Shown here piece after piece: positions 12,613 through 33,170 of a DNA stretch of 38,933 nucleotides; position 1 is the first letter of the stretch; every line of letters begins with the position of its first letter. The position numbers were made by a program, and so were the translations under genes. The notes beneath the pieces were generated by a model. The model worked only from the letters and a program-made list of their open reading frames with translations. It had not been told where the DNA came from and searched no databases. Source of the stretch: an uncultured Candidatus Poseidoniales archaeon (lineage in GTDB: Archaea > Thermoplasmatota > Poseidoniia > Poseidoniales > Poseidoniaceae); NCBI GenBank assembly GCA_902520595.1, contig CABYOM010000009.1, positions 1 through 38,933 on the forward strand, written 5' to 3'.

Positions 12613-13101
12613 ATGCAGCTCTCTTCACGCCAAATCAAAGGATTCACCCTCGTTCTGCTTTTGAGTTCACCCTGGTTATTGTGTCAAGCATGGATTGCAA
12701 CCAGCGCTCAGGATGAAGTATGGGATACAATGCCAGTTTGTCCAGAAGCCAGCAGTAATTGTGCCCACATTGGCGGTAATGCAGACTATCGAATGGATGG
12801 GGAATTTACGCTCACATTGAATCAATCTGCTGAACAGGTGTGGAGTGCTTTACAACAATACATCGATGATTCTGGTGCAGATGTGTTGCTGGAAGAAAAA
12901 CAAGATTCTGGTGAGTCATACACACATTTTGTTGAACGGACTATCTTTTGGCGATTCCCAGATGACGTCGCAGTTCACATAACTGTAATTGATGAAACCA
13001 CATGCAGCCTTGAACTCCATTCACAATCACGTATCGGTGGAATCGATATGGGCATCAACCCTGCCCGACTTGAGGGGCTCTACGACGCTCTTACTGAGTA
13101 G
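12613..13101 (+). CDS. Secreted DUF1499-family protein
   Basis: This 162-residue protein has an N-terminal signal or anchor segment (about residues 10-31). The rest matches the DUF1499 family pattern: an NCAHIGG-like start, an AEQVWSALQQYI helix and the closing SQSRIGGIDMGINPAR motif, which is the family hallmark. The function of DUF1499 is unknown. It begins nine bases after the gpmA stop and is probably cotranscribed. Its 3' end overlaps the convergent JAMM gene by 11 bases. Confidence 0.8.
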   Translation: MQLSSRQIKGFTLVLLLSSPWLLCQAWIATSAQDEVWDTMPVCPEASSNCAHIGGNADYRMDGEFTLTLNQSAEQVWSALQQYIDDSGADVLLEEKQDSGESYTHFVERTIFWRFPDDVAVHITVIDETTCSLELHSQSRIGGIDMGINPARLEGLYDALTE

Positions 13102-13819
13102 TCTCTGTTCGAAGATTGTCCCAGCCAAACGGCAATCCTTCCTCATCGACCAGGATGACATTAATCCCAAGGCCATTTTTCCGGAAGGCTATCAATTGAA
13201 TTTCATGTATTTTATGACCGCTTGGCGCAACACCCAACACCGGTAAATTCTGGCGAGCAAAAAATGACCTTCTGCGACGTTTCGTGGGAGTAGGTTGTGC
13301 TTCAGCACCTACTCTTCGTCGTACTCCTTCGACATCATCATACCACGGTAGAGGTCCTTCAGGGGAGAAGCGAAGACCAAGAATCATATCTACGCCATGG
13401 GTCTCTTGCGCAGCATCAGCATCGGCATGACTCGGAATGGCTGGTGCATTTGGATGCGTATGCAACCAGTGGGTAAACCGCCCAGCCCTGGAACCTCGAG
13501 ATGTTGAAAACATATCATCCGTCCAGTCTTCAGGTAAGTGGTGAACAGAGTATGAATCTCCACGGTTCACGATGTGTGCTTCACCAATGATGAAACCTTG
13601 CCCTTGGAATAAACCATCGGTATGCTCACTGCTTTGGAACAGCGCTTGAACCTCAGGAACATGGGGGGTTTGTGCATCAATATCCAGCCCTACAAGAATT
13701 TCATCGGGCAGAGCTTGCAAAGCCCACCACACTAATTCTTCAAACAAATGACCCGGCAAATGGATTTGAGCAGTATAGGACTCACGACTTTGAAAAGAGT
13801 CTTGATTGTATGAAGTCAT
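13091..13819 (-). CDS. JAMM/MPN-family zinc metalloprotease
   Basis: This is a 242-residue protein with a JAB1/MPN domain at about residues 17-155. The zinc site is complete: HTHP, six residues, then SHAD gives His120, His122, Ser130 and Asp133 with exact JAMM spacing, and Glu40 in LPDEILVGL is the expected catalytic glutamate. Such enzymes cleave isopeptide or C-terminal bonds of ubiquitin-like proteins; archaeal members remove SAMPs. A basic KRRRRSFF patch (about 180-187) precedes a C-terminal beta-rich part. ATG 13819 has AGAGGAACTG directly upstream; the frame is open to a TTG at 13924, with ATG 13846 also possible. It is divergent from an acidic WYR-tailed protein gene. The substrate is unknown. 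Confidence 0.85.
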   Translation of the reverse strand: MTSYNQDSFQSRESYTAQIHLPGHLFEELVWWALQALPDEILVGLDIDAQTPHVPEVQALFQSSEHTDGLFQGQGFIIGEAHIVNRGDSYSVHHLPEDWTDDMFSTSRGSRAGRFTHWLHTHPNAPAIPSHADADAAQETHGVDMILGLRFSPEGPLPWYDDVEGVRRRVGAEAQPTPTKRRRRSFFARQNLPVLGVAPSGHKIHEIQLIAFRKNGLGINVILVDEEGLPFGWDNLRTETTQ

Positions 13820-13937
13820 CAGTTCCTCTAACCAAGGTTCCACCATCGCAATCGGTTCTGCGAGCCGCTCATGGTGAATGAAGGCAGCGGAACATGATGG
13901 GAGAAAACCTTTGAAGAGGGTCAATACATCTCAGTCC

Positions 13938-14642
13938 ATGGCGAAGAAGAAGGGAGGTTTCGGCCGATTCATCGGTGCACTTACCGGAACGCCATATGAA
14001 CGTCTTTTGAAACAAGTTGACAAACTCGTTTCAGAACACGAAGACGATGACAGAAAACTCGCTCGAACATTGAACAAACTCGTTTCAATCGTGAGTGAAA
14101 ACTACGAAGAAGAGAACATCGATGAGGAAGAGCACGACTTGATCATTGAAGCGATTGAAGAAGCGGACCCTGAACGCCGCAGTTTTGGAAAATTATCTGA
14201 AGACGAGGATGCATTTTACTCAGGTGCAGTCCCTGATGCTCCAGAATTAAAACTTGGAAAGCGGAAGAATCTTGATGAGCTTATGCAATCCAAAGGAGAT
14301 GAATTTGTTGGAAGTTACGGTCGTGATGAATTTGAAGAATTCAAATCTCGAATGACGGATGACTTTTTTGCAGAATCGGATGATGCTATTCGCAAAGGCG
14401 ATCATGAAGCGCCATTAGTTCGAGAAAACCGAGTTTTCGGTGATGAAAACGAGGAACTTGAACGGCTCAAACAACAGATTTCACAAGAAACTGGACTCGT
14501 AGACCCAAACGCTGAGGAAGAGGAAGAAGAAGTCGAAGGATATTCGATTGACGAAGACGGCGTAGAGTGGTTTGAAGACGAAGATGGATATTGGTGGTAT
14601 CGTGAAGAAGGCCAAGACGATTGGCAGCCCTACGATGATTAA
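13938..14642 (+). CDS. Highly acidic soluble protein with C-terminal WYR tail, unknown function
   Basis: This 234-residue protein starts with a basic MAKKKGGFGRF segment, continues with acidic helices, and ends in a Glu/Asp-rich aromatic tail (residues about 203-234, SIDEDGVEWFE then YWWYR and DDWQPYDD). No signal peptide or membrane helix is seen, so it is probably cytoplasmic. The tail matches the C-terminal end of the unrelated TSP3 surface protein at 28178-31135. I recall similar tails on other Marine Group II proteins. ATG 13938 is chosen because the protein-like basic start begins there; an upstream in-frame start at 13878 would run into the divergent gene's leader. No enzyme motif is present. 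Confidence 0.75.
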   Translation: MAKKKGGFGRFIGALTGTPYERLLKQVDKLVSEHEDDDRKLARTLNKLVSIVSENYEEENIDEEEHDLIIEAIEEADPERRSFGKLSEDEDAFYSGAVPDAPELKLGKRKNLDELMQSKGDEFVGSYGRDEFEEFKSRMTDDFFAESDDAIRKGDHEAPLVRENRVFGDENEELERLKQQISQETGLVDPNAEEEEEEVEGYSIDEDGVEWFEDEDGYWWYREEGQDDWQPYDD

Positions 14643-20177: not shown

Positions 20178-23100
20178 ATGTCGGGGAGTCGCGAGCAGCA
20201 GACGGTACTGGGCAATTTCGTCTCCATACTGATGATTTTACTGATGACGATGCACCTCTACGCTCCTTTTGCTTCTGCTGCAAATATGGCATCGTGCGAC
20301 ATTCCACTCTCATCCCCCGGCTCATGCGATGAATACGACGGAAATGACGACATGACGCCATTCCAGCAAGATTGGATTGAAGGTACCTATGACTTCACAT
20401 TACAATCAACTTCAACGATTCGTCTTGAATTGGTTTGGGCATTGCGAGAATTTAACAAAGAGGCGCTTGGACTCAGTGCCATACCTCTGATTAATGCTGC
20501 ACTGGCTGCTGACGGACTTGATGAAAACGACGGAGCACCAGCCGATCTTATTCGAGACCAATTTACACAAGAAATTGCTCCAGGTGTTACCGTTGAAGAT
20601 AAATTGATTATTGAAATAAACAAGGCGATCAAAGATTCTGTAGAGTCAGGATTTGGCAATGCAACAACCTCAACTGGATATTTTGACACGTATACCAATG
20701 CCGGAACAACAGTCGCTTGTACAACCGACCCGTCAATCGATTCGTTTGATGAAGGTGCGGCGGAAAACAATGTGTTTGAACCGCCAATATGCCTCAAGAG
20801 TGTCGTCTACATCACGGTTTCTCAAGATTCTTTTAACTTGGTTGCCAATGCAAACCTCGACTTAGAAAGAGCGTACCAAGGACTCTTAGCAATGGGTACA
20901 GAAGTGACGACGATGTTCAGTTTGTCCGGTTTGCCAGGACACAAATCTTCGTATTCATTCAACCCTCCACCCTATGCTACGATCAAGAGCGTTGATGTAA
21001 ACGGCACACGTGCAGCACGCGCAGGTCCACCTGCATACTTTGCTGGTGAATGGGAAATTGACAACAGAAATGCTGCTGTAGACGGCGGCAGTCTTACGTT
21101 GCCAATTGAGGTCGAAATGATGCACAGAAACAGAAGCGATACAACAACTGTTTCAATTCCGGCCAATGAAAAAGCGCTTGACTTACAAATTCAACTTGAC
21201 CTGAGAGATGAGTCTGCAGCTACCCTTGATTTTGTCGTAGCGATGCATTATCTTGACGAGGCTACAATGACTGATTGGGGGATTTCCATGATGAGTGTGG
21301 CCGAACGTGCAACGATGAAACAAGTGACTTCAGACGGCATACGTCTCGCTTATCACAACGGAATTGTCGATTTGTCAAACATCACCAGTCAATTCCCTGT
21401 AGATACTATTGCCGAGGGAATCTCATCAACCATCGCTGGAATGGAGACGATTCAAATGAACGATATGACTTGGGTTTCCGATTCTGTTTCTGCTGGCATT
21501 ACTGGGCCAACGGGTGGACTCAATTTCACTCACAGAGATACTGCTGGATGTACCGAAGTGGTCCCGCCGACAGAACCTCTCCATTACTGCGTTCAAGGTT
21601 CAAGTGCGATGTCCTATGAAAACCCGGTTTATCTTCGAACGACAAGTCAACCATTTTCAATGCGGCTACTGGATATCTTGAAAGAAAATAACGAACAAGA
21701 AACCGTCGAGGAGTTCCTCAATGTCCTCACCAATGAAGACTTCCGAAGAGTGATGAATTCTGGCATTGAAATAGAAACTGCATTGGACAGCACATACCTT
21801 TCCGCAATTGTCCCCAGCAACCTGCCGCCCAACGAGTTAACTTTGGAAATTATCCTTCCAACATGGATTCAAACCAAAGATGGTCTTGACCGCATCACGC
21901 TCAAAGATTCCCTTTATGAAGACGATCAGATGAATATTTCATTTGCAGGAACTGCGCCTTATGACTGGCGCAGTGTGATCAAAAATGACCAGAATGAAGT
22001 GGGTTGCTATTCCAATCAATCAACGTGCGTAACCAGTACGATGAGGATGGATGCAATGTCATTCCGCTTCAATGAGTGGGACCGTTCTGTAGCATTCGAG
22101 TTTGGTATTGATGCAGGCGTGTCGATGCACAGAATTGGAATCCCTCAAGACAGGATTCCATCGTATGGTGAACACAGCATTTCAATGGAAGCGATTCCGT
22201 CGGACCTCGTGCGATTAGGCATTGACCTATCAAGCCGTTTAGAATCGCCTTATACCCGAACATTTGAACTCGATTTCCTGTGCAGTGCAGATTCCGATGA
22301 CGCGTTCAATCTTGCAATTTGCAGCGAAAGTATCACGTTTACTTTTACCAGTGCGGGGCTTGTTAGTTTCGTTGCGAGGGTAGGCGAGGTATTGACTGCT
22401 TATGTCCAACAATCAATTGAATATCTGACTTCGCAACAAGAATCGAGATTTAAAACCGTTGATTTGAGTGCCTTTGCGGTAAAGTTCGAATTGGCAAACG
22501 TTGGACCACCTGACCTCATCGTTTCAGACAATGAAGGCATATCGCTCTCAATGAATATCCCTCGTGTGAAATTCAAATTAGCCGTGGATGGTGACCTGGG
22601 AGAAATGTTTTCAGGCAATTTCGACTCGACTGAATTTTCCCTCACAACCAATGCTTTGCGCCAAACAGTTCTTTGGCCAATTACTTCAATGATGCAAGCA
22701 TTTTCTAATGTTTTGGTCAATGGTGTCATCTCATTATCTGGAATCACCTCACCTACTGATGACCCCTCAGTAAACCCGTATTCGTTACCAATCTCGACGA
22801 CGAGTTTCCTCAATGAAGAGTTCCAAATTGCTTTCAACGGCCCAATGACAATTCATCTGCCGAAAGGAATCCGCCTCTTGGATTTGGAGTCTTCAGCAGG
22901 ATATATCGAAGAGAGAAAAGTCGATGGTCGCCAAGAAATAACCTACAATATGCCGTATGGTAATGTGGAAGATACCATCACATTCCGGGTTCAAATTACG
23001 TGGTATTTCTTTTTCATATTCCTCTGGAAATACATGGCGATTTTTGCCATCTTGCTCCTGTTAGGTGTTCGAAGGTTTAGAAAGAAAAGAGCGCGAAAGA

Positions 23101-23324
23101 AGGCAAGACGGAATTATTCGAAAGCGCGGTCGGCCGATAAAGTCAGTATTAATCATGATGAATTTGCTGATCTCTCTGGATTCCACAGTAAGGGCATCCA
23201 CGGAGACATGGAGACTCTCAAGGATTATTCTGGTGGAGCAATTCCTGAATTACCCGCAAGACAAGCAGGTTTCGGAATCAGTGCTGTTCGGCAGAGAGAA
23301 ATTGACGATGATATGTTCAATTGA
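20178..23324 (+). CDS. 1048-aa surface protein of unknown function, signal peptide plus C-terminal anchor
   Basis: I do not recognise a family. A signal sequence (about 12-35, ending FASAAN) is followed by a 900-residue extracytoplasmic region with no obvious repeats. A membrane helix lies at about 942-965 (WYFFFIFLWKYMAIFAILLLL), and then a very basic stretch and an 80-residue cytoplasmic tail. The outer part contains scattered cysteine pairs, such as SCDIPLSSPGSC and CYSNQSTC, that could form disulphides. A DUF or adhesin assignment cannot be made. The cytoplasmic tail suggests a link to the cell interior. The start lies 19 bp from the divergent TYW2 start, and the stop directly abuts that of uvrC. 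Confidence 0.82.
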   Translation: MSGSREQQTVLGNFVSILMILLMTMHLYAPFASAANMASCDIPLSSPGSCDEYDGNDDMTPFQQDWIEGTYDFTLQSTSTIRLELVWALREFNKEALGLSAIPLINAALAADGLDENDGAPADLIRDQFTQEIAPGVTVEDKLIIEINKAIKDSVESGFGNATTSTGYFDTYTNAGTTVACTTDPSIDSFDEGAAENNVFEPPICLKSVVYITVSQDSFNLVANANLDLERAYQGLLAMGTEVTTMFSLSGLPGHKSSYSFNPPPYATIKSVDVNGTRAARAGPPAYFAGEWEIDNRNAAVDGGSLTLPIEVEMMHRNRSDTTTVSIPANEKALDLQIQLDLRDESAATLDFVVAMHYLDEATMTDWGISMMSVAERATMKQVTSDGIRLAYHNGIVDLSNITSQFPVDTIAEGISSTIAGMETIQMNDMTWVSDSVSAGITGPTGGLNFTHRDTAGCTEVVPPTEPLHYCVQGSSAMSYENPVYLRTTSQPFSMRLLDILKENNEQETVEEFLNVLTNEDFRRVMNSGIEIETALDSTYLSAIVPSNLPPNELTLEIILPTWIQTKDGLDRITLKDSLYEDDQMNISFAGTAPYDWRSVIKNDQNEVGCYSNQSTCVTSTMRMDAMSFRFNEWDRSVAFEFGIDAGVSMHRIGIPQDRIPSYGEHSISMEAIPSDLVRLGIDLSSRLESPYTRTFELDFLCSADSDDAFNLAICSESITFTFTSAGLVSFVARVGEVLTAYVQQSIEYLTSQQESRFKTVDLSAFAVKFELANVGPPDLIVSDNEGISLSMNIPRVKFKLAVDGDLGEMFSGNFDSTEFSLTTNALRQTVLWPITSMMQAFSNVLVNGVISLSGITSPTDDPSVNPYSLPISTTSFLNEEFQIAFNGPMTIHLPKGIRLLDLESSAGYIEERKVDGRQEITYNMPYGNVEDTITFRVQITWYFFFIFLWKYMAIFAILLLLGVRRFRKKRARKKARRNYSKARSADKVSINHDEFADLSGFHSKGIHGDMETLKDYSGGAIPELPARQAGFGISAVRQREIDDDMFN

Positions 23325-26566: not shown

Positions 26567-28057
26567 TCAATTTCTTCGTTTTCGGCTTCCATGTATCTCA
26601 TACACAAGGCTCGAGCGTCTTTTCACCTCAGGTTTCCCTTTGGCTGAATAGGACTTACTCACGCCTTCTTTGCGAGAGACTTTCTCATCAACAATTGGGG
26701 CAGGGTAATCCTTGCCAATTATACAGTTATACATCTCTTGCTGTTCTTGAGTCATTAACCAAGGTTCATGGATAAACTCAGCAGGAACTGAAGCCAGTTC
26801 TCCAACCCATTCTCTGATGAAATCCCCTTCCGGGTCTTGGTCTTCGGATTGCTTACGAACTGAATATGCGCGCACAGAGTTGATTCCAGTCACTCCGGAT
26901 TGCATGTGTACCTGCGACCAATGTATACCGGGCTCATAATCAAGGAAAAGGCGTGCAAGGTGTAAGCCGGTATCTTGCCAAGGCAGCCATAATGTGTAAG
27001 ATGCAACCGATTGAAGCATCGCTCTCATTCTGAAGTTAATCCAGCCAGTGGCGATAAGAGAGCGCATGCATGCGTCAAAAAATGGCCAGCCTGTTTGCCC
27101 TTTTGCCCAAGCTTGGTATCGCTGTTCATCATGCACTCGTTCAAGATGCCCATCAAGCTCAGGATTGACGGCAATCTCATCCATGGTCGTTTCAAACTCC
27201 AACCTTTGAATAAAATGGCAGTGCCATGCAAGCCTGCTTTGAAATGAACTTAGACTGGACGTCCAACCTCGGTTTTCTGCTGAACGAGGGTTGATTCTCA
27301 CCTTTTTTTGCTTCCTTCGGCTGTGGTGTAGGATTTGGCGAATGGTGATGCAACCTGTGCTGATGTAAGGGGATAATCGAGAACAGGCTTCCCTTCCAGT
27401 AACGGGGCTCGACATACCGGAACGATATTTTCTGCCCCTCTCATCCAAGAAGGAAAACAGAACAGATATTGCCGCTTTTTCTCCTGCAATTGGCCGATAT
27501 TCAAGCTCTCTAGGTGTTATTCCGAGTTCCTTCGCCTCCGGAATCAGATCAGATTTCAAATTCTCAGGTGATTGGATGGTCACTGGTGTAGTGATTAATT
27601 CACCGTCCACACGAGCATCCCTTTGACTCTTCCAATGGTCCCGAGATTGCAGGCCCCTGATGACTCCATTTGTCGCGTATTCAGTGAATGTGACTTCATT
27701 TTCTTTGCACCATTTAGTCACTGATTTATCACGTTCCCACGACCATGTAAGTCCAGTTTCTTCATGACTGTGGAGGGATGCAATCTGGTATTGTTGATGA
27801 ATTTGTGATAATTTATCGACAACATTCCCAAAGTTGAATAATAATTTTGCTCCAAGTGTTTCAAGCGACTCACTCAACGCTCTGGCACAATCCAATTCCC
27901 ATTCAATATGTATCTCAGACACATCATTTCGCTCTAATCTCTCAGGCTCAATATTGAACAAACAAATTACGGGGTGAGGACTTTTACTCGCTTCAGAAAG
28001 TGCTTGATTATCCGAGACCCTGAGGTCTCGTTTGAACCAGACCACTGAGACAGGCAT
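26567..28057 (-). CDS. Deoxyribodipyrimidine photolyase / cryptochrome, class I-type
   Basis: This is a 496-residue FAD flavoprotein that uses blue light to split UV-induced pyrimidine dimers. The N-terminal antenna domain starts VVWFKRDLRVSDN. The FAD domain is shown by SRLSPYISTGCIT (about 228-238), TGWPFFDACMRSLIATGWIN (about 322-341) and RMRAMLQSV, followed by LARLFLDYEPGIHWSQVHMQSG. These are the hallmarks of the photolyase/cryptochrome superfamily. A cryptochrome role cannot be excluded. A basic C-terminal extension (residues about 470-496) may help DNA binding. A TATA-like TTAATAG lies about 25 nt before the ATG, so the mRNA is probably leaderless. It is convergent with the DsrE-led trio. 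Class assignment would need a tree. Confidence 0.9.
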   Translation of the reverse strand: MPVSVVWFKRDLRVSDNQALSEASKSPHPVICLFNIEPERLERNDVSEIHIEWELDCARALSESLETLGAKLLFNFGNVVDKLSQIHQQYQIASLHSHEETGLTWSWERDKSVTKWCKENEVTFTEYATNGVIRGLQSRDHWKSQRDARVDGELITTPVTIQSPENLKSDLIPEAKELGITPRELEYRPIAGEKAAISVLFSFLDERGRKYRSGMSSPVTGREACSRLSPYISTGCITIRQILHHSRRKQKKVRINPRSAENRGWTSSLSSFQSRLAWHCHFIQRLEFETTMDEIAVNPELDGHLERVHDEQRYQAWAKGQTGWPFFDACMRSLIATGWINFRMRAMLQSVASYTLWLPWQDTGLHLARLFLDYEPGIHWSQVHMQSGVTGINSVRAYSVRKQSEDQDPEGDFIREWVGELASVPAEFIHEPWLMTQEQQEMYNCIIGKDYPAPIVDEKVSRKEGVSKSYSAKGKPEVKRRSSLVYEIHGSRKRRN

Positions 28058-28177: not shown

Positions 28178-31135
28178 ATGAAGCGTATCGGGATTTTATC
28201 AGTTGCCTTACTCCTGTTTTTTTCAACAACCATAATTCCCACTGCCAGTGGAGAAGAAACTCCTGAGGTTGATCCTGAAGTCTGGATTGATGGTTGGAAA
28301 TTGCGCTCATCCGAAGATTTACGACTCTACTCGAGCCACATACTCCGCTTTTGGGACGGAAGTTACGGTCACGACGATCAGGGGAATTTCTATGTTGCCT
28401 TTGTCGATGAGAATGTTGAAATTGACCCAGCCAACCCCGGTGAAACGAGTCATAAATCTGATGAACGAGCCATCTACATTTTGAAATATGATCCTTTGGG
28501 AGTTCTTGAATGGAGTAAGAGTGTAACTTCGACACGAAATGACTGTAACGCCTGGAATGACAATGAATGTAGATTAATGGGGCTACACATTGTTGCAGAG
28601 GACTCCTTTTTCATGACTTGGCAAACCTACAACACGGCTACTTTCGAATTTGATGACGATGTTGATGTAAGCGTTAGCGGACACCGTTTAGCCATAGCTT
28701 ACCACAACCAAGACGGTTGGCAATATGCAGATTCAACCCAAACGAGGGGATGGACCGTTGATTATGTTGTGAAGCAAGAATTAGACGACAACAATAATCT
28801 CATTATTGTCTTCAAAGAAGATAACAATGGAGGCCTCCAAGAGTATACTGTTCGGGCATATGACGAGAACGGTGGAAAGTGGGCCCGTAACCTCGAAGTT
28901 TCACACGAATGGCCAACATACGATTACAACCCATTGCTAATCGATGTTGTAGGTTCTCAAACCCATTTCTTTGCGTTTACAAAAAACAGTATTCGATACG
29001 ACTCACAGACGATATCATGCCCATCCGATTCAATAGATGATTACTGTCACATTTGGATAAGCATTGACACAAATGGGATTAAACAAAGCCAGGTGGTTGT
29101 GAATTACACATCAATGGTGTTCACAGAATCTTTAGTTCACTCTGGGGGAATATATCTCTTAGGAACAACATTCGATGAAGTTGACGATGACCATACCATG
29201 AGCAACTTTACCGGTACCGTAGTAGAACATAACGAAAGAACGGCTTTCATCGCTAAACTTTCTGACCAAGGAAACTGGGACTTGGCTGAACCGATTTCAG
29301 CAACGAGCGGAAACGAAATCAAGGATTTCTTTGACCAAAGAGACGAGGGCTTCGCAGGTCTGTTTGCACAGGAAAGTGGGGATGTCACGTTCCACTTCCA
29401 ATCCTATGACGGTGGTTATTATCAGTCGGAATATTTCTCAATTCCCGGACAGTTTACAGTGTCAACATACCAAACTTTCATCACCATAAGCTCTCAAAAT
29501 TCGTATATTTCACATACCACTATCGGGTATCAGAATACCGATACCTACAACAATGATTATGCTGCAAAACCAGTGGTAGGACCCAACGGTTATCTCGCAG
29601 CGTTCTTTGAAGGACGAGGAGGAGAAAGTGACGTCATTCTACCTGATGGAACCTCGCATTACGGTGGTTTAGCATTTATTGATTATGAATCTGGAGGAGT
29701 TCTTGACTTCAAACCAATAGAATCGTGGGGTAATCATTACATGTATCCTCTATCGATCAGTTCGAACGGTGATTTGCTGACTTGGGAAAGTGTTCGTATC
29801 AGCAACACTTGGTATGAATCCTTCACGAATTTTGCCGTTGATAGAGACAATGATGGTCTTGGAGAAGGAGATAACTGCCCGTCTTCATACAATCCAAATC
29901 AGGAAGATTATGACGGTGATGGCATTGGCGATGCGTGTGATTTTGATGATGACAATGACGGTGTTACGGACACTTCTGATGAATGTCCTACAAGCGATTT
30001 AGAATGGGAAAGTAACAACATCACCAATCATGACAGCGATGGCTGTGAAGATAACACCGAAGATTACGATGATGATGGCGATGGTATACCCGATATTCTC
30101 GACTTATGTCCTCGAGGGATTACGGGCTATGGCGATGATGCTGACCAAGATGGATGTAAGGATCTTGAAGACCTCGATGATGATGATGATGGAGTCAATG
30201 ACGGCTCTGACTCGTGTAATCCTGGTGTGATATCTTGGTCTTCAGGAACACTTACGGACCATGATGGCGACGGTTGCCAAGATTCTGATGAAGATAAGGA
30301 CGATGATAATGATGGAGTATTGGATGTCTTGGATTACTGTCCTACTGGAGTGACTGGTTGGCTGTCAAATTCGAATACTGACGTAGATGGTGATGGTTGC
30401 GAAGACTCAACTGAAGACCTTGAATGCTGTGGCGAAGAAACTGAAAACACAGACGACCAGGGAAATTCTAACGACGCTGATGACTCAAATGATCAAGGTA
30501 ACACGAACGACCCGGGAAATACTGACAATCAGGGTAACACTAACAACGATTCTGGTGATGTCATAATCTACTACTTGTGTCCGGTCACCTTAGAGGCCGT
30601 CGAAGATATTGATGAATGCCCAGAAGCGATTCAAATTACCAACGAAACGAATGTAACAACCATTCTCATTGACTCACAATCAAACCTATCTGAAGAATAT
30701 GAAATCTGTCCAGATGGCAATTATATTGTGCTCAACGGAGCAGATTGCCCTGTCAATGATGCTACGACGAACGATGACCTCGAAAGCGCTATCGTTGAAA
30801 ATTCGGTCGCACCTTGGGTCTTGTATGTCGCTATGGGATCAGTTGGAGTTTCAATCTGTTCAATGCTCATCGTGATTTTTAGAAGCGGTTCAAACAAGAA
30901 TGAAGATACTGGTAAATGGTCAACTGATTCTCTCGATGATTTGTTTCTTCGCACTTCCCCTGGCCAATCTATTCAAGATTGGATCTCTGGAACACAATCA
31001 CCGCCAGCCGGAATGAGTGGTTCAATAGATGATGGTTTTGAATGGGTAGAGTGGCCGCCTAAATCCGATGATTTCTGGTATCGCCATGAGGATTCAAACG
31101 ATGAGTGGAAAAGATACGATAAAGCAAATCCCTAA
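28178..31135 (+). CDS. Large secreted surface protein with TSP3-type calcium repeats, anchor and WYR tail
   Basis: This 985-residue protein has a signal peptide at about 1-25. Residues about 26-550 are a beta-rich region with repeated W- and Y-rich strands that could be a propeller or lectin-like fold. Residues 555-747 hold DxDxDGxxD thrombospondin type 3-like calcium repeats with interleaved Cys-Pro pairs. A low-complexity Asn/Asp/Gly/Gln linker (about 757-793) follows. A membrane helix (about 877-905) anchors the chain. The cytoplasmic tail ends in GFEWVEW, FWYR and EWKRYD, matching the tail of the acidic protein at 13938. TSP3 repeats are typical of extracellular proteins that need calcium. 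The role may be adhesion or polymer binding; no catalytic motif is recognised. Confidence 0.85.
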   Translation: MKRIGILSVALLLFFSTTIIPTASGEETPEVDPEVWIDGWKLRSSEDLRLYSSHILRFWDGSYGHDDQGNFYVAFVDENVEIDPANPGETSHKSDERAIYILKYDPLGVLEWSKSVTSTRNDCNAWNDNECRLMGLHIVAEDSFFMTWQTYNTATFEFDDDVDVSVSGHRLAIAYHNQDGWQYADSTQTRGWTVDYVVKQELDDNNNLIIVFKEDNNGGLQEYTVRAYDENGGKWARNLEVSHEWPTYDYNPLLIDVVGSQTHFFAFTKNSIRYDSQTISCPSDSIDDYCHIWISIDTNGIKQSQVVVNYTSMVFTESLVHSGGIYLLGTTFDEVDDDHTMSNFTGTVVEHNERTAFIAKLSDQGNWDLAEPISATSGNEIKDFFDQRDEGFAGLFAQESGDVTFHFQSYDGGYYQSEYFSIPGQFTVSTYQTFITISSQNSYISHTTIGYQNTDTYNNDYAAKPVVGPNGYLAAFFEGRGGESDVILPDGTSHYGGLAFIDYESGGVLDFKPIESWGNHYMYPLSISSNGDLLTWESVRISNTWYESFTNFAVDRDNDGLGEGDNCPSSYNPNQEDYDGDGIGDACDFDDDNDGVTDTSDECPTSDLEWESNNITNHDSDGCEDNTEDYDDDGDGIPDILDLCPRGITGYGDDADQDGCKDLEDLDDDDDGVNDGSDSCNPGVISWSSGTLTDHDGDGCQDSDEDKDDDNDGVLDVLDYCPTGVTGWLSNSNTDVDGDGCEDSTEDLECCGEETENTDDQGNSNDADDSNDQGNTNDPGNTDNQGNTNNDSGDVIIYYLCPVTLEAVEDIDECPEAIQITNETNVTTILIDSQSNLSEEYEICPDGNYIVLNGADCPVNDATTNDDLESAIVENSVAPWVLYVAMGSVGVSICSMLIVIFRSGSNKNEDTGKWSTDSLDDLFLRTSPGQSIQDWISGTQSPPAGMSGSIDDGFEWVEWPPKSDDFWYRHEDSNDEWKRYDKANP
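29840..30418 (+). repeat. TSP3-like calcium-binding repeat block
   Basis: Residues 555-747 of the surface protein carry several units of the pattern D-x-D-x-D-G-x-x-D, as in DYDGDGIGDACD and DHDGDGCQDSDED. Conserved Cys-Pro sites lie between them (DNCPSS, DECPTS, DLCPRG, DYCPTG). The unit spacing varies, so the block is degenerate and not an exact tandem repeat. Confidence 0.85.
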
Positions 31136-31195: not shown

Positions 31196-33037
31196 TCAAA
31201 TCAACTTCGTTTGCAAGGAGATACTTTTTCGCTTCACAGCAGAATTGAGGCTCCATAGAAGGCCAACTGCTTGCCATACAGATTGCTCAAGAAATGACTG
31301 CAAATCCTCTTCATCAATTGATGTTTTTTGAGGTTGAAAAACCACCAATCCTTCATCCGATACCTCATCGGCGACCTTGATGTCTTTTCGCAGTAGATGA
31401 CGTACGTCGTCAAGCGTATCGGTCTGGTGGTGCTCACACATCGATGCAACTCGTTGCTCCATCCAGTTCGGGAAGATTGAGCTATCCTCTGCGTCGAGGA
31501 GAGCATGAGCTTCAGCAGCATCGGTTTTGACAATATGGACATCAAGACCATTGTCATGCAGTATGCGAGCTACTGTTGATGCAGCAATATCTGTTCCAAT
31601 AACAAAATACGGTCCTTGATTATGGCTTGTAGGACGGTTGATGTGTTTTTGATAGGACTCCATATCGAGCCTGGATTCATGCGTAACAATGTCACGCTTA
31701 CGCACCACACCCATCACCGGCATTGATGGGAAGAAAGGTCGGTCAAACAAGCCATGGCACCACTGAATACCAACCACTGATGAAGGGTCACGTCCGTCAA
31801 GCGCATACTTGTCATTAAGAGTTTGACCGATAAACAGGGAATGTTCCAGTGAATCAGTCCACAAAGGTATGGCTTTACCCCAAGTCATTCGTAAATTATT
31901 ATGCAGCTCCCCATGACGAAGAAGTGAGAATTGGCACGCATTCCATAACGCCATTGGCGATTCTGCGTATTCCATTTCATGGTCCTTCAGGCGAACCACT
32001 CGAGGGTCGTCAGAAGTATCTCGCCATGATTGGAGTGCCCAATCAGGAAGGTTGAAGGAAGCATAAGGATCGCTAGACGAAAAGATGTGGTGCCAGGGAT
32101 GCTCGCGAAAAATAAGTAACTCATCGAGATATTTCTCCGACGATTTCGTACCGACTGCTGCTGCCTCTCGAGCGACCTTCATCGGGGAGAGAAAACCGTA
32201 GTGAAATGCAGCCGAAAGGCGAGATACACCCGACGGGTCTGCTGCATTGTTACGACGCCGAGCATACCCGTTCAGACCCCTGTCGTAGAACCGTTGCCAC
32301 TTGCCTAATGCCGCTCGCTCCCCACCTCGCTCATGCCATACGGGGAAAACGGAAGGGTCAATTGAACAGGAACGCAGAACTTCGAATCGCTTGCCTAAAT
32401 CTTTGATTTGCTCTGCCACATCAATTGCATCAAACGGTAACTCGCCCGTGTAGGCTTCAGGGTGAGCATCGGAACTGGGCCATGTGGCTTGCAGCCTTTT
32501 TTTCCTCATCTTTTTGGTCGCATCGCGGAACTTGAACGGTCGGTCAACCGACTTACCGAACAGAGGCATCGGTATGACGCAATGGCAATCAATATCAAAC
32601 ACAGGGCATGCAGCACTTGCAGCAATAGTATCTACCCAATCTGTCCACGGTGGAAGTGGAAACAGGTCAGTGATAATGCAACTTGCAGACTGACTGAACG
32701 ACTTCATAACAGATGGGCGATGGCCTTCTCGAGCGATGTGAAGCACATATCGAAGCCCTGCTTTTCTGCACCCTTCATCCATGTCAACCGCTGCATCAAG
32801 CAACATGTTGTGATGCCGTAATGAAGCGTGAGGATAACGCTCATCAATGGCGTGGTAAATCAGCAAGGGCAAGTTATGTTCTACAGCGATATGTTTCCCA
32901 AGGTCGATAGCTGGATTTTCATGAAGTCGAAACGACGATTTCAACCACACCACAACAGGTCCTGAACCATGAGGTTCAGCAATGCTGTTGCGATGTCGTG
33001 TCCGCTCACTCAAGTGAGGCGGAAGTGTTTCAAGCAT
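31196..33037 (-). CDS. Class II-type DNA photolyase with novel C-terminal domain
   Basis: This protein has 613 residues from the ATG at 33037, compared with about 450-480 for ordinary class II photolyases. The N-terminal antenna domain (VVVWLKSSFRLHENPA) and the FAD domain are class II-like: ELHNNLRMTWGKAIPLW and NDKYALDGRDPSS, then IQWCHGLFDRPFFP. The C-terminal 160 residues begin with GPYFVIGTDIAASTVARIL, which reads like the start of a Rossmann-type NAD- or FAD-binding fold, and continue acidic without a known motif. A TATA box (TATATA, about 33061-33066) sits about 27 nt before ATG 33037, so the mRNA is probably leaderless. The gene is convergent with the TSP3 protein gene. Light-driven dimer repair is likely; the tail's role is unknown. 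Confidence 0.85.
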   Translation of the reverse strand: MLETLPPHLSERTRHRNSIAEPHGSGPVVVWLKSSFRLHENPAIDLGKHIAVEHNLPLLIYHAIDERYPHASLRHHNMLLDAAVDMDEGCRKAGLRYVLHIAREGHRPSVMKSFSQSASCIITDLFPLPPWTDWVDTIAASAACPVFDIDCHCVIPMPLFGKSVDRPFKFRDATKKMRKKRLQATWPSSDAHPEAYTGELPFDAIDVAEQIKDLGKRFEVLRSCSIDPSVFPVWHERGGERAALGKWQRFYDRGLNGYARRRNNAADPSGVSRLSAAFHYGFLSPMKVAREAAAVGTKSSEKYLDELLIFREHPWHHIFSSSDPYASFNLPDWALQSWRDTSDDPRVVRLKDHEMEYAESPMALWNACQFSLLRHGELHNNLRMTWGKAIPLWTDSLEHSLFIGQTLNDKYALDGRDPSSVVGIQWCHGLFDRPFFPSMPVMGVVRKRDIVTHESRLDMESYQKHINRPTSHNQGPYFVIGTDIAASTVARILHDNGLDVHIVKTDAAEAHALLDAEDSSIFPNWMEQRVASMCEHHQTDTLDDVRHLLRKDIKVADEVSDEGLVVFQPQKTSIDEEDLQSFLEQSVWQAVGLLWSLNSAVKRKSISLQTKLI

Positions 33038-33060
33038 GATTACCGAAATGCCGTTCTGAA

Positions 33061-33066
33061 TATATA
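33061..33066 (-). promoter_or_regulatory. TATA box of the class II photolyase
   Basis: TATATA on the minus strand lies about 26 nt before the chosen ATG (33037). It supports that start over the longer frame beginning at 33070, which would place the TATA box inside the coding region. Confidence 0.5.
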
Positions 33067-33170
33067 CCACTGTTTTACAATCTTAATCAAGAGGGAGAAA
33101 TACTAATCATTGAGTTCTACAAAAAGACCAATGCTTGGGTAGAAACTTGAAGGGTTTGTAGTTTGGTAAC

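Follow-up and report, generated by a model that had tools for sequence, protein, structure and literature searches.

A predicted C-terminal mini-domain common to surface proteins and a soluble protein of Poseidoniales archaea

Two tails in one stretch of DNA

The window, i.e. the whole stretch of 38,933 nucleotides analysed here, comes from an uncultured Candidatus Poseidoniales archaeon and encodes two proteins, P0001 and P0002, that end in similar tails rich in acidic and aromatic residues (Table 1). P0001 starts with a basic Gly/Phe-rich N-terminus (residues 1-17), followed by a helical core, a variable acidic linker (about residues 186-200) and the tail domain. In the AlphaFold model, built with 42 aligned orthologues, residues 19-76 form a confident three-helix segment and the middle of the protein is of low confidence. 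P0002 is organised as a surface protein: the Pfam TSP_3 match in its ectodomain has E 2e-7, and its membrane helix (hydropathy 2.31) is situated 105 residues from the C-terminus, with no K/R before and three after it.

Table 1. Features of the window discussed in the text, with the basis for each.
Feature	Position	Strand	Basis and remarks
DUF1499 protein	12613-13098	+	E 4e-11
JAMM-motif protein (HTHPNAPAIPSHAD)	13091-13861	-	Prok-JAB E 2e-4, below cut-off; divergent, beside P0001
P0001, 234-aa soluble acidic protein	13938-14642	+	ORF reading, orthologue alignment, AlphaFold; no TM helix
P0001 tail domain, residues 202-234, subtype B: YSIDEDGVEWFEDEDGYWWYREEGQDDWQPYDD	14541-14639	+	Profile matches and AlphaFold; predicted strands 202-204, 210-213, 219-222, 230-232
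1,048-aa TM protein	20178-23324		Ends differently, no tail
Large photolyase/cryptochrome-like protein	26567-28057	-	By eye; flanks the P0002 gene on the opposite strand
P0002, 985-aa surface protein	28178-31135	+	Signal peptide, TSP3-repeat ectodomain, one TM helix, cytoplasmic linker, tail
P0002 predicted transmembrane helix, residues 881-901: VLYVAMGSVGVSICSMLIVIF, then RSGSNK	30818-30880	+	Hydropathy
P0002 tail domain, residues 947-985, subtype A-like, preceded by SPPA: SGSIDDGFEWVEWPPKSDDFWYRHEDSNDEWKRYDKANP	31016-31132	+	Profile matches and AlphaFold
Large photolyase/cryptochrome-like protein	31196-33070	-	By eye; flanks the P0002 gene on the opposite strand

An earlier note on this DNA had placed the tails at residues 203-234 of P0001 (14544-14639) and 949-985 of P0002 (31022-31132), which is where they lie. 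The motif that it gave for both, SID-(E/D)-DG, needs one correction: P0002 reads SID-DG, with one residue less than SIDEDG. Between the first W and WYR, P0002 has two residues more than P0001. When the full-length proteins are compared by BLASTP, the tail region is the top match (E 7e-5) and all others have E 0.36 or worse, so that the remainder of the two proteins appears as unrelated as the note had stated. The Smith-Waterman score of the tail pair (77) was reached by none of 20,000 shuffled pairs, the best of which scored 69. In addition, a profile built without both window tails and a P0001 orthologue finds the P0001 tail with E 1.3e-8 and the P0002 tail with E 3.8e-7 (residues ~946-980); this profile still holds further Poseidoniales tails, to which the window's own had led in the first place. 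The tails can thus be aligned beyond mere composition, and an artefact of composition is ruled out by the shuffles, the leave-out profile and the reversed-ORF controls given below. By these alignment statistics the two tails are homologous members of one family of about 35 residues.

The family, its position and its bearers

Of 31 genomes, that of the window among them, 22 contained sequences matched by a profile of the two tails; many matches lay in long ORFs, and almost all of those read out were C-terminal. With the refined profiles A2 (15 tails) and A3 (30 tails), each positive genome yields 1-12 matches, depending on the threshold. A rough consensus is G-x-[IVM]-x-D-G-x-E-[WY]-x-E-(x-P-x-G-S-G)-x-W-[WY]-[YF]-R-x(6,7)-W-x-x-[WY], within which two subtypes can be told apart by eye. 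Subtype A, that of P0002, has a first turn two residues longer and a Pro upstream in 19 of 20 tails, 5-13 residues away. Subtype B is acidic (DeDGtEWwe) and includes P0001 and the largest surface protein. Twelve tail positions of P0001 are invariant in its 42 orthologues: Y202, D205, G208, E210, W211, D214, G217, Y218, W219, W220, R222 and W229.

The enrichment at C-termini that the earlier note expected was found: all 42 six-frame matches with E<0.01 end 0-4 residues from the stop of ORFs that average 1,193 aa, and none is internal. These matches come from 448 kb of sequence (loci fetched from tail-bearing genomes, plus the window) picked for holding matches, and the count therefore does not describe a genome sample; the lack of any internal match is nonetheless informative. 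Since the profile holds no position information, the placement is not circular. Neither reversed ORFs (best E 0.16) nor ORFs deprived of their last 45 residues (best E 0.35) gave a tail match. As judged from these profile matches, the tail is a C-terminal element.

The proteins that carry the tail are mostly surface proteins with a signal peptide and a single TM helix, and they reach about 3,080 aa. Pfam recognises TSP3, C-type lectin and PPC, FG-GAP, PKD/Big_9, CARDB, TIG, SBBP and other domains in their ectodomains, and CBM96 and Disaggr_repeat in a giant bearer of ~3,050 aa, some of the ectodomain matches falling below the curated cut-offs. The ectodomains of the TM-bearing carriers form 16 clusters at 150 bits, a number that makes the tail look like a reused module. 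At E 1e-5 the clusters merge to five, probably through shared repeats (TSP3, Ig-like domains), and some bearers are hence distant paralogues with an inherited tail.

A simple measure of hydropathy gives 39 of 43 bearers a hydrophobic helix that starts ~77-200 residues before the end, and where the N-terminus of such a carrier is present, it usually shows a signal-like helix as well. A short bearer (G011:C45) looks multi-pass. The four bearers without TM helix are P0001 and its orthologues only. The K/R flanks of the helices put the C-terminus inside in 32 cases and outside in one, with six ties. There is thus good support for a cytoplasmic location of the tail, since its bearers are signal-peptide, single-TM proteins with a positive-inside ratio of 32 to 1, plus one protein devoid of a TM helix. 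The earlier note had put the P0002 tail inside the cell, a placement backed by the signal peptides and the positive-inside rule.

That note also mentioned similar tails in other Marine Group II proteins, and they do occur: of 98 Poseidoniales genomes (all at least 80 % complete, the window's own excepted), 60 hold 1-10 copies each. All 49 genomes of f1, the window's family, are positive, as are 11 of the 49 of family f2; the other 38 f2 genomes, in seven genera, are negative. We infer that f1 corresponds to Poseidoniaceae and f2 to Thalassarchaeaceae. A wider search over 295 genomes of the phylum returned 66 positives, all of them in Poseidoniales, and as far as profile matching reaches, no tail is seen outside this order among the 295.

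The core of P0001, searched without its tail, follows the same pattern: it is present in 12 of 14 tail-positive genomes (G047 and G090, in which it was missed, are incomplete assemblies) and in none of 18 tail-negative ones. The giant bearer is present in 7/7 and 0/18, respectively. In a tree of the JAMM-like neighbour of P0001, the tail-negative genomes all fall to the same side of a single branch (support 95/99), and the co-distribution of P0001, tails and giant consequently counts as weak evidence of a linkage. It may reflect one evolutionary event, or go with genome size, the tail-negative genomes being smaller than the tail-positive ones.

A putative docking domain and competing readings

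Both tails are modelled by AlphaFold as small beta structures with moderate confidence (pTM 0.32 and 0.52). The P0001 tail shows four strands with a mean pLDDT of 73-84 per ten residues, and the P0002 tail, from a single sequence, three strands with pLDDT ~80 and pTM 0.52. The predicted picture is that of a small beta-meander with many Trp and Tyr residues, carried by a flexible linker that is either acidic or rich in proline, and there are good grounds to believe that it folds independently. The docking or localisation tag suggested in the earlier note is in line with this, but that note underestimated both the look of a folded mini-domain and the breadth of the set of very large surface proteins that carry it. 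Foldseek searches of the AlphaFold models against the PDB gave no significant match, some small alignments of the P0001 model being to beta-propellers. Against Pfam, NCBIfam, PHROGs and PDB sequences, the tails gave chance-level matches only, the best in the PDB being designed beta-trefoils (E 0.016 and 0.62).

SHOCT, a short and mostly C-terminal domain of unknown function, is likewise common to many architectures, but it is alpha-helical and widespread in bacteria (PMC3581485), whereas the tail is predicted to be all-beta and is found only in Poseidoniales. The Pfam scan gave no SHOCT match and the predicted strands disagree with its two helices, so this identity was rejected. The tail would thus be a clade-wide C-terminal tag, but a predicted folded and cytoplasmic one, of neither the CTERM nor the SHOCT type.

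The tail is probably an independently folding, cytoplasmic C-terminal docking domain of about 35 residues that ties surface proteins to a common putative partner. A surface protein would be exported via its signal peptide and span the membrane once, leaving the tail domain to face the cytosol. There, and this step is put forward with less assurance, one common cytosolic or membrane partner would bind the tails of many bearers, and diverse adhesin-like, lectin and carbohydrate-binding proteins could thereby be gathered, retained or positioned together. Eukaryotic adhesion receptors, type I surface proteins whose ectodomains vary and whose cytoplasmic tail serves for docking, have the same working layout; the likeness involves no homology, and no adaptor was identified here.

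The tail might instead be a cap or stability element, such as a degradation shield or a self-association knob, that needs no dedicated partner. Its invariable position at the extreme C-terminus, its small predicted fold and its presence on proteins with little else in common would suit such a role. However, surface proteins of the same genome do without it, e.g. the 1,048-aa TM protein of Table 1, as does a whole group of related genera, and its surface-type aromatic and acidic residues are strongly conserved across subtypes, which suggests a binding face. A cap is thus unlikely.

A second alternative, which we consider still less probable, is a processing or sorting signal in the style of sortase, archaeosortase or myxosortase (CTERM) systems, read by a dedicated enzyme and cut off after use. 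The tail resembles CTERM signals (LPXTG, PEP-CTERM, PGF-CTERM, GlyGly-CTERM, MYXO-CTERM) in their hallmark: throughout a lineage, many unrelated surface proteins, several in each genome, bear the C-terminal tag in a many-to-one relation. These signals are tripartite, with a motif, a helix and then a short basic cytoplasmic end (PMC11980579), whereas the conserved block of the tail lies ~40-160 residues past the TM helix, is acidic and aromatic, is predicted to be folded, and also occurs on P0001, a soluble protein that lacks both signal peptide and TM helix. Among 30 tails scanned with a cut-off of E 10, none matched an NCBIfam CTERM model. We know of no enzyme for the tail, in contrast to the CTERM systems.

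WW domains are three-stranded antiparallel sheets that have two Trp residues ~20-23 positions apart and a conserved Pro after the second. That the tail is a genuine if divergent WW domain, with proline-rich peptides, possibly those in the linkers of its own bearers, as ligands, is slightly more doubtful again. Like the WW domain (PF00397), it has about 35 residues, a Trp near each end (spaced by 18 in P0001, W211-W229, and by 21 in P0002, W956-W977), a central aromatic cluster and a putative adaptor-like use, and a meander is predicted for it, of three strands in P0002 and four in P0001; the Pro upstream of 19/20 subtype A tails is suggestive only. On the other hand, the tail is always at the extreme C-terminus and restricted to one archaeal branch, its consensus has no conserved Pro after the last Trp, and Foldseek offered nothing significant. 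With E values as high as 10 allowed, the Pfam WW model matched none of the 30 tails, and hhalign against five WW domains, their sequences entered from general knowledge, gave a probability of 1% (P 0.056).

Convergence on an acidic-aromatic composition without common ancestry, to which the acidity of both P0001 and P0002 and the shortness of the motif might point, is extremely improbable, given that same-composition shuffles never reach the score of the tail pair and that the leave-out profile recovers both tails whereas reversed ORFs do not get beyond E 0.16.

If the tail is a docking domain, P0001 could be a soluble member of the assembly, acting as an adaptor, co-ligand or competitor, perhaps kept at the membrane by its basic N-terminus. 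No better candidate for such a role is at hand, since P0001 bears the domain but no membrane anchor and is distributed like the tails. A bolder proposal, made tentatively, is that archaeal surfaces are organised from the inside out, giant adhesin-like or binding proteins being clustered from the cytosol via the docking domain, with P0001 as a membrane-peripheral adaptor or competitor.

Marine Group II archaea are uncultured, and no other archaea of the surface-ocean plankton are described as more abundant; archaella, thrombospondin-like genes and flotillin are what the discussion of their adhesion has so far turned on (PMC6461757, PMC6336850), and their lineage-specific hypothetical families have been treated as well (PMC9258230). 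The passages found in open main texts on Marine Group II say nothing of such a C-terminal domain. A short domain family absent from the searched databases allows a coherent set of Marine Group II surface proteins to be listed from sequence alone and provides a single bait for the discovery of partners. It also points to an archaeal lineage in which ectodomains of many kinds are coupled to a single partner inside the cell, and hints at an undescribed way in which Marine Group II archaea organise their surface proteins.

Neighbours of P0001 and other W-rich ends

P0001 is soluble and conserved, with one match per genome. Its relatives occur only in records of Poseidoniaceae or Poseidoniales, and none was found in IMG/VR that would indicate viral carriage. 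The JAMM-motif gene adjoins P0001 divergently in 93 of 93 loci, a count that includes some genomes fetched twice. Of 18 tail-negative genomes, 16 retain it too, and it is for this reason regarded as context and not as a dedicated partner of the tail. The DUF1499 protein is encoded near P0001 in 78 of the 93 loci.

A link to the archaellum was rejected as well: the archaellin family is present in 9 of 14 tail-positive and 5 of 18 tail-negative genomes, being absent from the tail-positive genus g7 and present in the tail-negative g20. No separate tail-binding partner was found among the candidates checked, namely the JAMM-motif neighbour and archaellin.

Two further kinds of W-rich end were encountered. 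A surface-type protein encoded by a 997-aa ORF whose N-terminal end is open (L134, G000:C26) has a weakly matching W-rich end (DWVMGSDGYWWYHDKVANEWWYKNAEGEIVQHK), the matched part lying 13 residues from the stop, which may be a further subtype of the tail; its contig also carries archaellin genes. Just downstream of the ~3,050-aa giant in four genomes (G003, G027, G087, G044) lie paralogues (L206, L204, L207 and L203, respectively) that have a TM helix followed by a second W-rich C-terminal tail (type C), GVMxAxxGTxQGxxGWYxDxxGxxxxWxVDxxGxWxRxG. Type C has no Pfam match, and hhalign shows no significant relation between it and the main tail. It is present in 10 of 10 tail-positive and in 0 of 15 tail-negative genomes.
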